A stretch of DNA of 64,000 nt from Clostridium algifaecis. Its GTDB lineage: Bacteria > Bacillota > Clostridia > Clostridiales > Clostridiaceae. Each line of letters starts with the position of its first letter. Position 1 is the first letter of the stretch. Positions 3,859 to 38,347 of this stretch are shown here, piece after piece. Location: assembly GCF_017874415.1 (NCBI RefSeq), contig NZ_JAGGLM010000001.1:310001-374000 (forward strand), given 5' to 3'. The translations under genes were made by a program, and so were the position numbers. Under the pieces are notes generated by a model. It did not search any database, was not told the origin of the DNA, and saw nothing but the letters and a program-made list of their open reading frames with translations.

Positions 3859-4908
3859 ATGGTTAGAGCAAAGACAAAAAAAATAAAATTAGGAAATGTA
3901 TTTTTAGGTGGAGATTCTAAGGTTTCAGTACAGTCAATGACAAATACAGATACCAGAGATGAAGTATCTACTATAAATCAGATAAAAAAATTAGAAAAGG
4001 CAGGGTGCAATATAGTAAGATGTGCCGTGCCAGATATGGAAGCCTGTGATTCCTTAAAGAAAATTGTAAAAAATATAAATATACCTTTAGTTGCAGATAT
4101 TCATTTTGATTATAGATTGGCACTTAAATCTGTAGAAAATGGAGTATCTGGACTCAGAATAAATCCTGGAAATATAGGCAGCAAAGAAAGGGTAAGAGAA
4201 GTTTCTAAAGCTGCTAAATATTATAATGTTCCAATTAGAATAGGAGTTAATTCAGGTTCTTTAAGCATGGATATTTTGAAAAAATATGGTGGAGTTTCAT
4301 CGGACGGACTGGTAGAAAGTGCTTTAGATCATGTTAGAATATTAGAAAATGTAAATTTTGAAGATATAGTAATATCAATAAAATCGTCTAATGTGATTCA
4401 AATGATTGAAAGTTATAGAAAAATATCAAGCAAGGTGAAATATCCACTTCACCTTGGAGTTACAGAAGCAGGTACTATATTTAAAGGTACTATAAAATCA
4501 AGCATTGGTATAGGAACTCTATTGATGGATGGCATAGGTGATACAATAAGAGTTTCGCTTACAGGAGATCCGGTTGAGGAAGTTAAAGTTGGACGTGAAA
4601 TTCTAAAATCATGTGGACTATTAAAACAGGGGATTGAGTTTATATCATGTCCTACCTGCGGTAGAACTGAAATTGACTTAATAAAAATAGCTAATGAAGT
4701 TGAAACTAGACTTTCAAATGTAGATAAAAATATAAAGGTTGCCGTTATGGGATGTGTTGTAAATGGACCTGGAGAAGCAAGAGAAGCTGACATTGGAATA
4801 GCTGGAGGAAAAGGTGTTGGATTGATATTTAAAAATGGTGAAATTATTAAAAAGGTCAAAGAAAAAGATCTGGTGGAAGAACTTATTTTGGAAATTAATA
4901 ACTTATAA
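3859..4908 (+). CDS. ispG: (E)-4-hydroxy-3-methylbut-2-enyl-diphosphate synthase
   Basis: [4Fe-4S] enzyme of the MEP pathway that reductively converts MEcPP to HMBPP with ferredoxin or flavodoxin electrons. The protein has 349 residues and is of the short bacterial type, with a TIM-barrel N-terminal half. The cluster ligands are C264 and C267 in SCPTCGR, C299 in MGCVVNGPGE, and E306. RBS AAGGTGAAGGGG precedes the ATG. It occupies the position between rseP and polC that proS holds in Bacillus subtilis. The 21-base gap after rseP supports cotranscription. Confidence 0.97.
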   Translation: MVRAKTKKIKLGNVFLGGDSKVSVQSMTNTDTRDEVSTINQIKKLEKAGCNIVRCAVPDMEACDSLKKIVKNINIPLVADIHFDYRLALKSVENGVSGLRINPGNIGSKERVREVSKAAKYYNVPIRIGVNSGSLSMDILKKYGGVSSDGLVESALDHVRILENVNFEDIVISIKSSNVIQMIESYRKISSKVKYPLHLGVTEAGTIFKGTIKSSIGIGTLLMDGIGDTIRVSLTGDPVEEVKVGREILKSCGLLKQGIEFISCPTCGRTEIDLIKIANEVETRLSNVDKNIKVAVMGCVVNGPGEAREADIGIAGGKGVGLIFKNGEIIKKVKEKDLVEELILEINNL

Positions 4909-4939
4909 TTTGGTATTTTGCATTTAGGGAGGTAATATA

Positions 4940-7900
4940 GTGGCTGCTAATATTTTGAGACTTTTGCAAAATGATATAGATTCTTCAAGTGATGTTATGT
5001 TGGAAGAAGTAAAGCTTGAGAAAATACAATATTTAAAAAAGAGCAACAAGCTGAAGATAATAGTGAAATCAGTAAATGAATTAAATGCTAAAATACAGTG
5101 TAAGATAAAAGATATAGTAAGTAAGAAACTGGGATGTTTTACGGATATTGATCTGATATGTTATAAGGATATTTCAAATGTATCATTGGAGGAAGTTTGT
5201 AATAATTACTGGACTGAAGTTGTAAATATAATTTCATCATATATTCCGGTGTGCAGGGAATTTCTTAACGAATCTTCAATAGAAGTTAAAAATGACTGCT
5301 TGAATATATACAATGGCAATAATTTCATGTGTAATTTATTAAAGAAAAAGAATGTAGAAAAACTTCTAAAAAAAATTGTAAAAGATATATTTGGAATAAA
5401 TTGTAATACATCTATTGCATATGATGGAAAACTAATAAGCAAAAATTTTTTAGATGAAAGCGAAAAAATAGAAAAAAACTATATAAAAGATATAATTCAA
5501 AATGGAGAAAGAAACAATAATAAACCTGAAAAGAAAATTAAAAAAACATCATCAGATATAAAATTCAATGATAAAAGAGAAGAGGTTAAATCAGGTTCTC
5601 TAATATTCGGGAAACCAATAACAACCTCACCTATAGAAATAAAAACTATAGTAGGGCCTCAGGGCATAGTTATCATAAGGGGAACTATATTTAAAAAAGA
5701 AATAATAGAAACAAAAACAGGCAGAAAAATAGTTACATTTTATATAACGGATTATACAAGTTCAATTACAGTTAAATTTTTCCCAAGGCCTAAAGATGCA
5801 GATAGAATAATTGATGAAATAGAAGAGGGACTTTACTGTACAGTAAGAGGTGAAGCTGTAAATGACCCATATGCAAGAGAACTTGTTATAATGGCAAAGG
5901 ATATTGTAAAGTCAGTAAAAACCAAAAAAATGGATAATGCAGATGAAAAAAGAGTTGAACTTCATCTTCATACTAAAATGAGTGCCATGGATGCTGTAAA
6001 TTCTGCATCAGATTTAATAGAAAGAGCGGCAAGTTATGGACATAAAGCTATAGCTATAACCGACCATGGTGTGGTTCAGGCATATCCTGAAGCTATGACT
6101 GCAGCTAAAAAATATGGAATAAAAGTAATATATGGAGTGGAAGCTTATCTTGTAGATGATGGTGTTCCAATTACAATAAATGGATACGAACGAAACATAG
6201 ACGATACGTATGTAATTTTCGATATAGAAACCACTGGCTTTTCAAGTATTAATGACAGAATAATAGAAATAGGTGCAGTTAAAGTTAAAGAAGGTAAAGT
6301 AATAGATAAATTCAGTGAATTTGTGAATCCCAAAATGGCTATACCTGAACGTATTACGGAACTTACAAGTATTACAGATGATATGGTAAAGGAAGCAGAA
6401 GCTATAGATGGTATACTCCCAAGGTTTATTGAATTTATAGGAGATGCTGTAGTAGTTGCACATAATGCTGGGTTTGATACAGGATTCATAAAGAAGAACT
6501 GCAAAGATATTGGTATAAATTTTAATAATCCTATAATGGATACTGTTCAACTTTGCAGGTTCTTGTTTCCAGAACTTAAAAAATTCAAATTAAATACAGT
6601 TGCAAAGCATCTTGGCATATCGCTTGAAAATCATCATAGAGCTGTGGATGACGCTAAAGCCACATGTGACATACTTCTAAAGTGTTTTAAAGTACTGAAA
6701 GATATGGAAATTTTAAATCTTGGAAAACTAAATGAAGAATCTTTGAAAAATATAGATATAAAAAAACAGCCTACGTACCATCTTATAATTCTGGTTAAAA
6801 ATCAGGTAGGACTGAAAAATTTATACAAACTTATCTCTTTTTCAAATTTAGATTATTTCTTCAAAAGACCAAGAATGCCTAAAAGTCTTATCATGAAATA
6901 TAGGGAAGGGCTCATAATAGGTAGTGCCTGTGAAGCAGGACAGGTATATAAAGAGGTACTTAGTGGAAAAAGCGATGATGAACTTAAAAGTATGCTTGAT
7001 TTTTACGATTATCTTGAAATACAGCCCGTAGGAAATAATAAATTTTTAATAAAAAACGGCACTGTCAAAGATAAACGTGAACTTGAAAAAATAAATGAGA
7101 GAATTTGTTATCTTGGTGACAAGTACAATAAAAGTGTAGTTGCTACCTGTGATGTACATTTTATGGATGCAAAAGATGAGATATTCAGGCGGATTATAAT
7201 GGCGGGACAGGGATTTTCTGATGCAGACGATCAGCCGCCGTTGTATTTTAGAACTACAGATGAAATGCTTTCTGAATTTGAATATTTGGGTGATGAGAAA
7301 GCAAAGGAAGTAGTTATATATAATACCAATAAAATTGCAGATATTATTGAAGACGTAAAGCCAATACCTGATGAAACTTTTCCACCTAAAATAGAAGGTG
7401 CAGAAGAACAGATAAAAGAAATGACTTTGAATAAAGTTCACCGTATATATGGAGATAGACTTCCAGATATAGTTCAGGATAGGCTTGACAAAGAATTAAA
7501 TTCTATTATAAATAATGGATATGCAGTACTTTATCTAATTGCTGAAAAACTTGTAGCTAAATCTTCCCAGGATGGGTATCTTGTAGGTTCAAGGGGATCT
7601 GTTGGTTCCTCCTTTGTAGCTACTATGTCAAATATTACAGAAGTAAATGGGCTTCCACCTCATTATGTATGTCCAAAATGTAAGCACAGTGAATTTATTA
7701 CAGATGGTTCTGTAAGTTCAGGTGCAGATTTACCTGAAAAAAAATGTCCGGATTGTGGAACTGATATGAGAAGAGATGGACATAATATACCTTTTGAAAC
7801 ATTTCTAGGGTTCAATGGTGACAAAGAACCTGATATAGATTTGAATTTCTCAGGGGAATATCAATCAGTGGTTCATAAGTATACAGAGGTTTTATTTGGA

Positions 7901-34094: not shown

Positions 34095-34143
34095 TATAAA
34101 GTAGTAACAATAACAAATAAAGTTAATATATAGGAGGTTCGTT

Positions 34144-34404
34144 ATGGAAGTATTAAAAGTTTCAGCAAAATCAAGTCCAAATTCAGTTGCAGGAGCATTA
34201 GCAGGTGTATTGAGGGAGCGAGGAGCCGCTGAAATACAAGCAATAGGAGCAGGAGCATTAAATCAGGCTATTAAAGCAGTAGCGATTGCAAGAGGTTTTG
34301 TGGCACCTAGTGGAATCGATTTAATATGCATTCCGGCCTTTACAGATGTTGAGATAGATGGTGAAGAGAGAACTGCAATTAAATTAATAGTGCAGCCAAG
34401 ATAA
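34144..34404 (+). CDS. spoVS: Stage V sporulation protein S
   Basis: Small Alba-like protein of 86 residues needed for late sporulation in Bacillus. The sequence is highly conserved: LKVSAKSSPNSVAGALAGVL, GAGALNQAIKAVAIARGFV and PAFTDVEIDGEERTAIKL. The RBS TAGGAGGTTCGTT precedes ATG. It is monocistronic, with a probable SigmaH promoter and a strong terminator. Confidence 0.96.
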   Translation: MEVLKVSAKSSPNSVAGALAGVLRERGAAEIQAIGAGALNQAIKAVAIARGFVAPSGIDLICIPAFTDVEIDGEERTAIKLIVQPR

Positions 34405-34412
34405 TATAGGTT

Positions 34413-34456
34413 AAATTAAATAGAGGCTTGATTATTCAAGTCTCTATTTAATTTTT
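34413..34456 (+). terminator. Rho-independent terminator after spoVS
   Basis: A 19-base stem (34413-34431 with 34436-34454, one G-U) around loop TTAT, followed by TTTTT. Confidence 0.9.
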
Positions 34457-34459
34457 ATA

Positions 34460-34487
34460 TTGACTATATTATATACTATGTTAAAAT
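34460..34487 (+). promoter_or_regulatory. Promoter of the UbiA-glycosyltransferase-SMR operon
   Basis: TTGACT (34460-34465), 16-base spacer, TAAAAT (34482-34487), directly behind the spoVS terminator. Confidence 0.65.
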
Positions 34488-34530
34488 GTAAAAAGGTGTA
34501 CAACTGTTTGTTGCAATTAGGAGGAGTTTT

Positions 34531-35391
34531 ATGGTAGCGTTGATTGAACTAATGAGACCTAAACAGTGGATAAAAAATTTTTTTGTATTTGCTGCAATTA
34601 TTTTTTCAGGGAAATTTTTAAATTTTGATATATTAATCTTAAATATAGTAACCTTCTTATTATTTTGTATTACGTCATCTATAATATATGTGTTAAATGA
34701 TATAGTAGATATAGAAAAGGATAGGTGTCATCCTGAAAAGAAAAAAAGACCGCTTGCAAGTGGACGTGTAAGCAAAAAGTCAGCTATAATTTTAGATATA
34801 GCTTTATTTATTTTGGTTATATATTGTAATTATAATTTTGTAAATATAAAAGTTTTGGGTATAATGCTTACATATATTTTTATAAACATATTGTATTGTT
34901 TTAAATTAAAAAATATAGTTATAATAGATGTTATGACTATAACTTTTGGATTTGTATTGAGAGTTGAAAGTGGAAGTATTGCTACTGGAGTTGAAGTTTC
35001 GCCGTGGCTATTTTTATGTACAGTATTATTGTCTTTGTTTTTAGCTCTCAATAAAAGGAAAAGCGAGCTTATAACTTTAAAAGATAATAGTTCAAATCAT
35101 AGGAAGATATTAAAGGAGTATTCAATTAATAGCATAGATAAAATGCTTACAATAGTAAATCCATCCATACTTATGGCATACTGTCTTTATACATTTAGCT
35201 CTATTCAAAGCAAGACTATGATAGTTACTATTCCATTTGTACTTTATGGAGTATTTAGATATGAATATTTAATGGACAAAAAGAATATAGGAGGAAAACC
35301 AGAAGATGTATTTGCAAAGGATAAACCTTTTCTAATAAATGTACTTATGTGGGTTATTAGTGTTATATTAATAATATATTTAAAACTTTAG
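34531..35391 (+). CDS. UbiA-family prenyltransferase, polyprenyl-phosphate phosphoribosyltransferase-like
   Basis: Polytopic membrane enzyme of 286 residues. It opens with MRPKQWIKNFFVF, the pattern of the DPPR-synthase branch of UbiA proteins, and the first Asp-rich motif NDIVDIEKD at 56-64 is followed by HPEKKKRPLASG. The second motif is weaker (IIDVMTITFGFVLR, D133). Known members transfer 5-phosphoribose from PRPP to a polyprenyl phosphate. The next two genes (membrane glycosyltransferase, SMR carrier) fit a route that builds, flips and uses a lipid-linked sugar. Subfamily placement is by motif only; a quinone- or heme-type UbiA is less likely. Confidence 0.75.
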   Translation: MVALIELMRPKQWIKNFFVFAAIIFSGKFLNFDILILNIVTFLLFCITSSIIYVLNDIVDIEKDRCHPEKKKRPLASGRVSKKSAIILDIALFILVIYCNYNFVNIKVLGIMLTYIFINILYCFKLKNIVIIDVMTITFGFVLRVESGSIATGVEVSPWLFLCTVLLSLFLALNKRKSELITLKDNSSNHRKILKEYSINSIDKMLTIVNPSILMAYCLYTFSSIQSKTMIVTIPFVLYGVFRYEYLMDKKNIGGKPEDVFAKDKPFLINVLMWVISVILIIYLKL

Positions 35392-35410
35392 AGAGGGATG
35401 CTAGCTTTAT

Positions 35411-36736
35411 ATGGAAATAAAAAGTCTTTTTAAAGATGGATTTTATGTAGAAAGTGGAAAACACTTGTTTAAGAAAAAAAACAAAGAAATTTATAGTAAA
35501 ACTATTTATTATAAAATAATTATAGCAATTGACATAATTATGTCTGCATTGTGGATAGTGTTTGTAAATTCTTTCCCGTTTTCAGACTTTGATTATTATT
35601 ATACTATGGCTGTAAATATATCAAATGGCGGTGCATGGGGAAATACATATACTTCTTTAGGATATTCAATAGTATTGGGTGGAATATTCAAGCTGTTTGG
35701 AGCGAGTATTTTAAAAGCGAAGATATTTAACCTAATATTGACTATTATAAACTGCTTGATTTTTAAATCCATTCTACTCAAGATAAATTTAAATGAAATT
35801 GATAGAAAAATATTATTTGCATTATTTGTATTTATTCCTAATAATATATTCTATAACAGCATACTTGGAACTGAACTTTTATTTACATCGTTACTTTTAC
35901 TTATAACATATGTATATATGAGTGATATGAAATACAAGTATCTTTATATTGGAATTTTGTCGGGATTAAATACGATGATTAAACCATTTTTTATAGTGAT
36001 TTTTTTTGCTATATTTTTAGTAGATATAGTAAAACATAAAAAAATTATATTTTCCATAAAAAATTCACTTATTGTACTTATATTAACTGCTATAGTAATT
36101 TCACCGTGGATATATAGAAATTCAAAACTAATGGGACAATTTACATATGTATCAAATAATGGTGGAATAGTACTTTATATAAATAATAATTCTCAGAATC
36201 ATAAAGGAAGATGGATGGCAGCAGGGGATGTTGAAAATTCTATTGTAAATACAGAAGAATATAAAAAAGCTAATATGACAGAAAAAAATAAAATGTTAAA
36301 TTTAGCGGCTAAAAAATGGATAAAAGCTCATCCTGGAGAGTTTATAAAATTAGGTTTTAAAAGACTTTTTAATACATATTTTGTAGGCGATGATATAATT
36401 TATAGTACATATGGCAGTGGTATAAGCAATAATTTTAAACTTTTGCTTATAGCCTATACGAATTTTGTAAGAGAAATAATATTTGCACCTGGCATTGCAT
36501 GTATATTGCTCTACAGTATATTTATACTGATTGAAATAATAAGAGGCAGGAGCCAACTTATTGACAAATTCAATATATATGGAGTGGTACTGTTTTTTAT
36601 GTTTACATGTGTCTATTTTGTAACAGAAGGGCAAGGAAGATATTCTTTTCCGGTAATATTTGTGATTATATATTTCTTTTATATGATTGTAAGAACGTTT
36701 TTATTTAAAAGAGTAGATGGGAAGGGATTTGAATGA
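35411..36736 (+). CDS. GT-C fold membrane glycosyltransferase (ArnT/PMT-like)
   Basis: Protein of 441 residues with about ten to eleven hydrophobic segments. After the first membrane helix, an outside loop has FSDFDYYYTMA (about 57-67), in the place of the catalytic acidic residues of ArnT/PMT enzymes, and YTSLGYSIVLGGIFKLFG follows. A large soluble loop near residues 240-320 precedes the last helices. Such enzymes use a polyprenyl-phosphate sugar donor on the outer face of the membrane. The acceptor is unknown. It lies 19 bases after the UbiA gene and overlaps the SMR gene by four bases (ATGA), so the three are coupled. Confidence 0.75.
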   Translation: MEIKSLFKDGFYVESGKHLFKKKNKEIYSKTIYYKIIIAIDIIMSALWIVFVNSFPFSDFDYYYTMAVNISNGGAWGNTYTSLGYSIVLGGIFKLFGASILKAKIFNLILTIINCLIFKSILLKINLNEIDRKILFALFVFIPNNIFYNSILGTELLFTSLLLLITYVYMSDMKYKYLYIGILSGLNTMIKPFFIVIFFAIFLVDIVKHKKIIFSIKNSLIVLILTAIVISPWIYRNSKLMGQFTYVSNNGGIVLYINNNSQNHKGRWMAAGDVENSIVNTEEYKKANMTEKNKMLNLAAKKWIKAHPGEFIKLGFKRLFNTYFVGDDIIYSTYGSGISNNFKLLLIAYTNFVREIIFAPGIACILLYSIFILIEIIRGRSQLIDKFNIYGVVLFFMFTCVYFVTEGQGRYSFPVIFVIIYFFYMIVRTFLFKRVDGKGFE

Positions 36737-37089
36737 TTGCATTAATATTGGTTTCTGTCTTTTTAGGGGCTATTGGACAGGTACTTGTTAAATATGGAGC
36801 AGCCAATCTCCAACTTGATTTTACCCTGCAATATTTATTTCAGAGCATTTTAAGCATATTGAAGAACTTACCTGTTATGTGTGGAATAATATCATATGGC
36901 ATTAGCTTTTTATTATGGATAAAAGTTTTAAGTAAAGTTGAACTGAGTTATGCATACCCTATGGTAAGTATCGGATATATAATAACAATGATATTTTCTT
37001 ATTTTCTTTTTAAAGAGAATATATCTTTAACTAGAATAATAGGTGTAGCTTTTATAGTAGTAGGTGTAATTTTTATTTCAAAAAGTTAG
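36733..37089 (+). CDS. SMR/EamA-type four-helix membrane carrier (ArnE-like)
   Basis: Small protein of 118 residues with four hydrophobic helices, beginning ALILVSVFLGAIGQVLVKYG, the ArnE/EmrE-like pattern in which helix 1 has a Gln or Glu at the central site. PMVSIGYIITMIFSYFLFKE in helix 3 and the final GVIFISK are typical for single-domain EamA carriers. Operon position next to an ArnT-like transferase suggests it flips the lipid-linked sugar rather than exporting drugs; this is inference. It overlaps the preceding gene by four bases. Confidence 0.72.
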   Translation: MIALILVSVFLGAIGQVLVKYGAANLQLDFTLQYLFQSILSILKNLPVMCGIISYGISFLLWIKVLSKVELSYAYPMVSIGYIITMIFSYFLFKENISLTRIIGVAFIVVGVIFISKS

Positions 37090-37094
37090 TTTAA

Positions 37095-37116
37095 AATATC
37101 TACAATTTCAGATATT
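37095..37116. repeat. Short inverted repeat before the aminotransferase gene
   Basis: AATATCT (37095-37101), eight bases, AGATATT (37110-37116). It is a possible weak terminator of the glycolipid operon or an operator; no T-run is present. Confidence 0.35.
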
Positions 37117-37153
37117 ATTAATATATATAAACTTATAATATGGAGGGGTAAAA

Positions 37154-38347
37154 ATGATTCTGTCAAGAAAAGCCAAAAAGATTGAAGCATCCATAACTTT
37201 GGCAATAACTGCTAAAGCGAAGCAAATGAAATCAGAAGGCATTGATGTAATAGGATTTGGAGCAGGTGAACCGGATTTTAATACTCCGGAATATATTCAA
37301 AATGCTGCAATTAATGCTATAAAAAATGGATATACAAAATATACTGCAGCTTCTGGGATTGAAGAGCTCAGAGAGGAAATAGCCGAGAAATTGAAGAAAG
37401 ACAATAATTTAAATTATTCTACAGATCAGATTATTGTATCTACTGGAGCTAAACAATGCCTAAGCAATACATTTTCATCGGTACTTAATCCAGGAGATGA
37501 GGTAATTGTGCCAGTTCCTTACTGGGTAAGTTATCCAGAACTCATAAAGCTTGCAGATGGGGTACCTGTATTTGTAAAAACTAAAAAAGAAGATGGATTT
37601 AAGTATAATATAGAGGAGCTTGAAAAAGCAGTTACGGATAAGACTAAACTTATTGTAATAAATAGTCCTAATAATCCTACTGGAACTGTATACACAAAGA
37701 AAGAACTAAAAAATATAGCAGATTTTGCAAAGAAGAATGATATATTAATATTATCCGATGAGATATATGAAAAATTAATATATGATAATAATGTACATGT
37801 AAGTATAGCAAGTTTGTCAGATGACGCATATGAACGAACGATTATTATAAATGGAATGTCAAAAACTTATGCCATGACTGGATGGAGAATAGGTTATGCA
37901 GCAGGAAATAAAGACATTATAAAATTAATGTCCAACATACAGAGTCATACTACGTCTAACCCTAATTCAATAGCTCAGTATGCATCTCTAGCTGCTTTAA
38001 GATATGATAGTCCTGAGGTAAAATATATGATACATGAATTTAGTAGTAGAAGAGACTATATGTTAAAAAGAGTTGAAGATATAAAAAATATATCTGCATT
38101 TAGACCTCAGGGAGCCTTTTATGTATTCGTGGATATATCAAAAACATTTGGCAAAAAAGCTCATGGAATGGAAATTAAGGATTCTATTAGCTTTTCACAG
38201 CAATTACTTGAAAAACAAAGGGTAGCTGTAGTGCCTGGAATTGGCTTTGGAATGGATGATTATATAAGATTATCTTATGCTACTTCTATGGAAAATATAA
38301 AAGAAGGACTTAATAGAATAGAAGATTTTATAAAAAGTTTGAAATAG
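37154..38347 (+). CDS. PLP-dependent aspartate/aromatic aminotransferase (class I)
   Basis: Cytosolic aminotransferase of 397 residues, subgroup I-gamma-like (AspB/AatA). INSPNNPTGTVY carries the substrate-contact Asn, SDEIYEKLIY the cofactor Asp/Tyr, and NGMSKTYAMTGWRIGY the PLP lysine K237. The C-terminal Arg is in IRLSYATS. Probable role: oxaloacetate to aspartate, possibly with broader specificity. RBS TGGAGGGG is 6 bases before ATG. It is followed by a separate ptsH promoter. Confidence 0.9.
   Translation: MILSRKAKKIEASITLAITAKAKQMKSEGIDVIGFGAGEPDFNTPEYIQNAAINAIKNGYTKYTAASGIEELREEIAEKLKKDNNLNYSTDQIIVSTGAKQCLSNTFSSVLNPGDEVIVPVPYWVSYPELIKLADGVPVFVKTKKEDGFKYNIEELEKAVTDKTKLIVINSPNNPTGTVYTKKELKNIADFAKKNDILILSDEIYEKLIYDNNVHVSIASLSDDAYERTIIINGMSKTYAMTGWRIGYAAGNKDIIKLMSNIQSHTTSNPNSIAQYASLAALRYDSPEVKYMIHEFSSRRDYMLKRVEDIKNISAFRPQGAFYVFVDISKTFGKKAHGMEIKDSISFSQQLLEKQRVAVVPGIGFGMDDYIRLSYATSMENIKEGLNRIEDFIKSLK

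Follow-up and report, generated by a model that had tools for sequence, protein, structure and literature searches.

This report concerns a three-gene operon in a 64-kb stretch of the 2.96-Mb genome of Clostridium algifaecis, referred to here as the window. The genes lie on the plus strand and encode a UbiA-family prenyltransferase (UbiA), a glycosyltransferase of the GT-C fold (GT-C) and a protein of the SMR family. Judged by sequence, the operon appears to be a compact three-component system that attaches ribofuranose to an envelope molecule on the outer side of the membrane, a reading that we place at a little under four chances in five. UbiA, going by its family, would move 5-phosphoribose from phosphoribosyl pyrophosphate (PRPP) to polyprenyl phosphate, after which an unlinked phosphatase would take off the 5-phosphate. 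With no DprE1 over its family cut-off, and so without a DprE1/DprE2 epimerase, the sugar would stay ribose. The SMR protein, from its family and linkage, would flip the polyprenyl-phospho-ribose outward, and the GT-C enzyme, which has the fold and catalytic-type residues, would transfer ribose to an envelope acceptor. One UbiA may supply several GT-C enzymes, including a second copy on contig C7 of the genome.

If this is true, clostridia, C. ljungdahlii and C. tyrobutyricum for example, are predicted to have a ribose-bearing envelope molecule, and the genes to delete are named. The chemistry of decaprenylphosphoryl-5-phosphoribose (DPPR) synthesis, known from mycobacteria, would then be spread through Bacillota.

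The proposed donor synthase

UbiA scored over the cut-off of two NCBIfam models for decaprenyl-phosphate phosphoribosyltransferase (NF008977, 251.4 bits against 234; NF008978, 224.3 against 207); the cut-off of a third model of the same name, NF008976, was not reached (157.9 of 474 bits). Models of haem, quinone and chlorophyll prenyltransferases scored it far under their cut-offs, and these identities were rejected. The nearest solved structure is the mycobacterial enzyme 8j8j (phmmer against PDB, 3.8e-37). The protein carries NDIVDIEKD at residues 56-64 and KRKSE, with the loop-IV Arg/Glu, at 175-179. Among the 66 distinct UbiA proteins of the loci collected, NDxxDxxxD is found in all and [GNS]KRxxE in 60. 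UbiA is the single match in the whole genome and belongs to the DPPR synthase branch, with the activity predicted accordingly from the family. The profile search bore out what the first-pass annotation, made from the letters alone, had proposed, and placement in the quinone or haem branch did not occur.

The proposed transferase and flippase

The second gene product (441 amino acids) was found to have a GT-C fold, with ArnT ranking first in a list of PDB folds. No GT136 structure was seen in that list, which says nothing either way on that family. The protein is thus placed by fold only. Its first outer loop contains S58-D59-F60 and Y63, and E406-G-Q-x-R410-Y411 lies close to the C-terminus; D59, the acidic residue of the loop, is invariant among relatives. 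The third product is over the Pfam cut-off for EamA and Multi_Drug_Res, and its best NCBIfam model is ArnF, under the cut-off (68.4 of 99 bits; ArnE, 41.2 of 92). The two proteins had been called ArnT-like and ArnE-like: ArnT heads the fold list, there is no ArnT family match, and neither the ArnF nor the ArnE cut-off was reached.

Layout of the locus

The three open reading frames have the coordinates and the spacing (19 and -4 bases) given for them at first (Table 1). Two terminator-like sites were found in 34100-37300, where 0.5 were expected. The promoter is conserved in front of UbiA in the window genome and nine relatives, and the conservation extends to parts of the spacer and to AAAAAG behind the second hexamer. 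The locus does adjoin spoVS, as had been pointed out, but a terminator lies between and the operon has its own promoter, so spoVS is a mere neighbour. A tie to spoVS or sporulation was rejected on these grounds, and the trio of Desulfosporosinus is located elsewhere.

Table 1. Positions of the operon features in the window and of PHP-domain genes at related loci
Feature	Position	Strand	Remark
Terminator-like hairpin, 19 pairs	34413..34454	+	Separates operon from spoVS
Promoter TTGACT, 16 bases, TAAAAT; TG precedes second hexamer	34460..34487	+	Kept in ten genomes
UbiA-family polyprenyl-phosphate phosphoribosyltransferase (DPPR synthase-like), predicted donor synthesis	34531..35391	+	NCBIfam, phmmer, motif
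GT-C-fold glycosyltransferase, proposed polyprenyl-phospho-ribose:acceptor transferase	35411..36736	+	Fold, catalytic-type residues
SMR-family protein (ArnE/ArnF-like), proposed flippase of lipid-linked sugar	36733..37089	+	Pfam, linkage
PHP-domain phosphoesterase gene, L012	253-1107		
PHP-domain phosphoesterase gene, L015	182-1039		
PHP-domain phosphoesterase gene, L018	3202-4053		
PHP-domain phosphoesterase gene, L080	7544-8368		
PHP-domain phosphoesterase gene, L136			Between SMR and AAT

Co-occurrence and spread

One set of 146 Clostridiaceae genomes served for the searches with all three proteins. At E 1e-3, 54 of them had a match to UbiA and 57 to GT-C. Close and distant classes were separated at gaps in the score tables, and the counts depend on those cuts. 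A close UbiA was found in 41 genomes (score of at least 387 bits; G033, with UbiA in pieces, is counted in) and a close GT-C (at least 245 bits) in 42, and all of the 41 are among the 42 (Fisher 1.3e-35, relatedness ignored). The remaining close-GT-C genome, G039, holds a more distant UbiA. UbiA matches in the other 13 genomes are distant in 12 (149-276 bits) and at 20 bits in one; in the 15 remaining genomes with GT-C, the top match scores 19-187 bits. Of the 42 genomes matched by the SMR protein at 1e-12, 30 have a close orthologue (at least 145 bits), and these 30 are all inside the 41. In 29 of the 30 the gene stands directly behind GT-C on the same contig, and in one (G068) on another contig. 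The putative synthase, the putative flippase and GT-C are encoded together in the window and in 29 of the 41 genomes.

UbiA is single in each of the 41 genomes, and GT-C matches number from one to five per genome if weak and partial ones are counted. The second GT-C gene of the window genome (contig C7) is 54% identical to the first, and a search of plasmids gave no GT-C match.

Named genomes were also scanned with the GT-C alignment, and 80 of 95 relatives were kept. Outside Clostridium, UbiA, GT-C and SMR are together in Desulfosporosinus and its kin, some of them metagenome bins (L161-L163, L167-L170, L172, L174), and in L160 with GT-C on the opposite strand. UbiA and GT-C stand without SMR in L176 and L179, and GT-C alone in L164 and L171; in Syntrophomonas (L195) the order is GT-C-UbiA-SMR.

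Which pentose

The nature of the sugar depends on epimerases, and none is encoded in the window operon. The DprE1 family model (NF053785) was over its cut-off in none of the 146 Clostridiaceae genomes. Weaker matches occur in 91 of them at 1e-10, reaching 65.6 bits at most, those listed covering the FAD-binding part only. Among 18 genomes behind the named loci, four matched at 1e-30: two Bacilli (455.4 and 487.4 bits of the 500 required) and two of the seven of the Desulfosporosinus group (324.6 and 327.3), where the gene sits elsewhere in the genome. Four named Clostridium genomes had no match in this search, in which the control, Corynebacterium glutamicum, was over the cut-off. The two Bacilli, Aneurinibacillus (L193) and Tumebacillus (L197), have GT-C-UbiA followed by a protein with DprE1 as its best NCBIfam model (455.7 and 428 of 500 bits, the latter from a reading frame with a late-set start). 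The next gene encodes a short-chain dehydrogenase with DprE2 as second-best model, below the cut-off (188 and 197 of 250).

Ribose is our best guess for the sugar of the window, since none of the 146 Clostridiaceae genomes has DprE1 over the cut-off as against DprE1/DprE2-like genes in two Bacilli; xylose-type epimerases (ORF13) were not searched for. The first suggestion that the sugar may be ribose itself was strengthened by this comparison, and an arabinose donor for this family was rejected, as no DprE1 over the cut-off was found in those 146 genomes. An epimerisation of ribose to arabinose or xylose by enzymes encoded elsewhere, giving another pentofuranose at the surface, is very unlikely. 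The neighbours of GT-C-UbiA in the two Bacilli and the DprE1-class genes of the two Desulfosporosinus-group genomes would favour it, and the lack of DprE1 over the cut-off in the 146 Clostridiaceae, the four named Clostridium genomes without a match and the epimerase-free operon argue against it.

A linked two-component system and a direct repeat

Behind the second GT-C gene of the window genome come genes for a response regulator and a kinase; VanS is the top model for the kinase, at a score under the cut-off. This arrangement is found in 8 of the 13 genomes of the genus. In L162, L163 and L169 the order is UbiA-regulator-kinase-GT-C-SMR. Between the window genome and Desulfosporosinus, the regulators are 60% and the kinases 37% identical over their full length, and they are reciprocal best matches. 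With the Desulfosporosinus regulator as query, the GT-C-linked one ranks first in three of three Clostridium genomes, with small margins in two (310.1 against 294.2; 310.8 against 300.9). The reverse search finds the regulator of the operon first in G151 and G152; in G153 and G154, where the trio occurs and the two-component system does not, only relatives of 42-44% come up. Both best regulator matches of C. hydrogenum (G099) adjoin GT-C genes, the first one beside a distant GT-C of the PMT_2 group. As to chance neighbours, 13 of 100 distinct GT-C genes have a response regulator no more than two genes away, as against 25 of 799 control genes at the same loci, rows that are related; the trait must have changed at least four times on the tree.

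The promoters of both kinds, those of the second GT-C gene and of the Desulfosporosinus trio, share a direct repeat with an 11-base period, which we take to resemble a Pho box. A pattern, CTTCANNAANTCTTCA, was drawn up after these promoters had been seen, and it has 22 matches in 20 whole genomes (8 when read backwards). It occurs once in the 2.96 Mb of the window genome, 108 bases before the second GT-C gene, and 12 of the 22 matches precede GT-C or UbiA genes of the present type. The other 10 include one before an unrelated two-component pair (L206) and one between carA-like and carB-like genes (L205), so the site is not wholly private. Among the 2145 distinct genes of loci L001-L200, which were chosen around GT-C and UbiA genes, the site lies no more than 350 bases upstream, on the same strand, of 11: 8 are GT-C genes, of which those in L048 and L101 are broken copies, and 3 are UbiA genes. 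The exact site precedes the linked GT-C gene in 7 of the 8 system-bearing genomes of the genus. The eighth (G001) differs there by one base and has the exact site before a broken second copy. No GT-C gene is preceded by the site in the five genomes of the genus without the system.

Because a VanRS-like system follows the second GT-C gene and a near-unique direct repeat precedes it, an envelope signal probably induces part of the decoration. With one orthologous sensor system and one near-unique operator, a switch of surface pentosylation becomes directly testable. A wider reading, possible but doubtful, is an inducible Gram-positive counterpart of Arn in Clostridia and Desulfosporosinus. In it, one polyprenyl-phospho-ribose line would feed several GT-C enzymes. 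In response to an envelope-active agent, the VanRS-like system would switch some of them through an 11-bp direct-repeat operator of its own, and the cargo may even be ribose-5-phosphate.

In Desulfosporosinus lacus (L206 7100-9548, G151), the repeat precedes a different two-component pair and, by eye, a set resembling a MacAB-type exporter. An FtsX-type permease gene was also seen within two genes of 6 of the 100 distinct GT-C genes, without a control count alongside and with three changes on the tree. The GT-C paralogues near such a BceB-like gene are in L054, L079, L082, L083, L084 and L099, the FtsX domain having been tested in L054 and L079. These neighbours hint at antimicrobial-peptide stress, and we make no claim on a BceAB-like link.

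Weighing the three-component reading

Several results weigh against the proposed system. GT-C lies apart from UbiA in 9 of the 41 genomes, all 9 being among the 11 in which no close SMR orthologue was found; C. tyrobutyricum ATCC 25755 (G073) has UbiA-GT-C without the SMR gene. Given these 11 genomes, another flippase must exist or flipping is not the role of the SMR protein. GT-C relatives that have diverged to 28-33% identity show no tie to UbiA. The highest-scoring one, at 187 bits in Clostridium oryzae (G031), precedes an ArnC/PgfS-like GT2 in a genome with no UbiA match. The operon of the window itself is without the direct-repeat site, and its tie to the two-component system runs only through the paralogue and Desulfosporosinus. 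It also contains no phosphatase gene, and no HAD match was found within five genes of any of 29 distinct spoVS-linked UbiA-GT-C loci; the HAD-IB family is present in 142 of the 146 genomes, mostly in two copies, whether UbiA is present or not. The expectation that the trio travels together held for UbiA and GT-C as a pair (41 of 41) and for the position of SMR where it occurs (29 of 30), but not for SMR in 11 of the 41 or for UbiA-GT-C linkage in 9. Neither of the two outcomes named beforehand as refuting the first-pass interpretation came about, and that interpretation is supported.

The divergent relatives should not be taken as ribose transferases. At their locus in C. oryzae (L078 8302-10531; compare L182), the GT2 scores under the cut-offs of the ArnC/PgfS models, and its position after the divergent GT-C suggests that the transferase family is able to swap its donor module. 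This pairing, together with the broad membership of the SMR family, is what speaks for three unrelated neighbours, that is, a quinone or haem prenyltransferase, an orphan transferase that uses a different donor and an SMR pump for drug efflux. Such a chance assembly is hardly credible and is refuted in part: the quinone and haem models lie far below cut-off, the gene order is kept in Clostridium and Desulfosporosinus, and UbiA and GT-C co-occur in 41 of 41 genomes.

The first-pass annotation had proposed one enzyme for each step. Making, flipping and transfer are covered, but the 5-phosphate was overlooked and no dedicated phosphatase was seen, so that attachment of ribose-5-phosphate is conceivable. 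In that case, the 5-phosphate would never be removed, the SMR protein would flip polyprenyl-phospho-5-phosphoribose and GT-C would transfer ribose-5-phosphate, giving an anionic surface sugar. We regard this as unlikely. The phosphatase-free operon and loci favour it, with a PHP-domain gene at only 4 of the 29 loci. So does the HAD-IB count, which is mostly two both in close-UbiA genomes, the window genome included, and in relatives lacking UbiA. HAD-IB was rejected as a dedicated phosphatase of the window system, since no HAD lies near the 29 loci and 142 of 146 genomes have the family in any case. On the other side, the 12 distant clostridial UbiA loci (L061-L072) have within five genes a HAD-IB protein in 7 and a GT-C relative in 7, two SMR genes in 3, and neither HAD nor SMR in five; in L064 the HAD protein scores 136.6 against a TIGR01490 cut-off of 98.3. 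A PHP-domain gene also lies behind SMR or GT-C in five species, at 4 of the 29 loci and in L080. Its best model in L012, 3',5'-nucleoside bisphosphate phosphatase, is below cut-off, as are RNase RNM and phosphoribosyl 1,2-cyclic phosphate diphosphodiesterase. A relative 37% identical is encoded elsewhere in the window genome, outside the operon. By its domain, this gene may encode the phosphoribose phosphatase that is missing; only those five species have it in or at the operon. In the system of Citrobacter youngae, a phosphatase-dead ORF15 is reported to have still yielded ribose side chains (PMC11127046), and by analogy a house-keeping enzyme likely removes the 5-phosphate. The missing phosphatase is a clear biochemical question.

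Relation to known systems

Three-component pentofuranose systems were described by Kelly et al. in 2024 (PMC11127046), with ORF15-ORF14-ORF12 of Citrobacter youngae O1/O2 as prototype. The prototype consists of a polyprenyl phosphoribose synthase, a MATE flippase and a GT-C enzyme of family GT136, with epimerases for xylose and arabinose, and its biochemistry is published. Gram-positive candidates, one a Bacillus, were found via ORF15, and Clostridium goes unmentioned in the main text; the mycobacterial exporter is called SMR-type, and other systems are said to use separate phosphatase enzymes, not fused ones. The window operon shares with C. youngae a UbiA-type synthase, putative flippase and GT-C encoded together, the NDxxDxxxD motif and a sugar expected to be ribose unless an epimerase is present. 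The Asp of the first outer loop with a Tyr four residues on, and the late Arg-Tyr, match the reported D31/Y35/R349/Y350, by comparison of positions only. Unlike C. youngae, the window has an SMR and not a MATE flippase, no fused or adjacent HAD phosphatase, and a shorter GT-C whose GT136 membership is not shown, ORF12 being compared by its named residues only. Several GT-C copies in many genomes and the two-component link are further differences.

The mycobacterial decaprenylphosphoryl arabinose pathway (Rv3806c, Rv3807c, DprE1/DprE2, Rv3789, Emb/Aft) is similar in its Rv3806c-type first step and in having GT-C transferases last. It differs in that the window system has no DprE1 over cut-off, no phosphatase or epimerase genes in the operon and a smaller GT-C. 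The enteric Arn system (ArnT, ArnE/ArnF) is set apart by the ArnF score below cut-off and the lack of an ArnT family match. Its donor is made by ArnA/B/C/D, not by a UbiA enzyme from PRPP.

In Clostridioides difficile, the HexRK-hexSDF two-component system controls an envelope hexosamine glycolipid (PMC10128005). It resembles the present case in the two-component control of an envelope glycolipid, the small operon and the clostridium-like organism. It differs in its proteins, which are like a monogalactosyldiacylglycerol synthase, a deacetylase and MprF; its abstract names no UbiA, SMR or GT-C. Among the open-licence PMC papers listed, titles and abstract openings pointed neither to a surface pentose nor to this operon in clostridia. 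The kind of pathway has been known since 2024 (PMC11127046); the clostridial version and the sensor system tied to its relatives appear to be new.

Other loci

Some loci show the system in decay or in other company. In Acididesulfobacillus acetoxydans (L161 5148-9625), a 530-codon reading frame, transposase-like by eye, splits UbiA and leaves GT-C and SMR open, which is a natural disruption of the donor step. The trio of G033 (L111, C1:1630815-1633330) is decaying, with several stops in UbiA and GT-C and an open SMR. In Thermotalea, Anaerosolibacter and Geosporobacter (L196, L198, L200), UbiA adjoins a gene that is S-layer-like by eye. Its other side is taken by a gene of the LPG_synthase_TM type (PF03706, tested in L196), and GT-C is 4-5 kb off. 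Lastly, an unannotated 6.6-kb phage record from human faeces (MT837543.1) encodes at 4874-5740 a UbiA protein 36% identical to that of the window.

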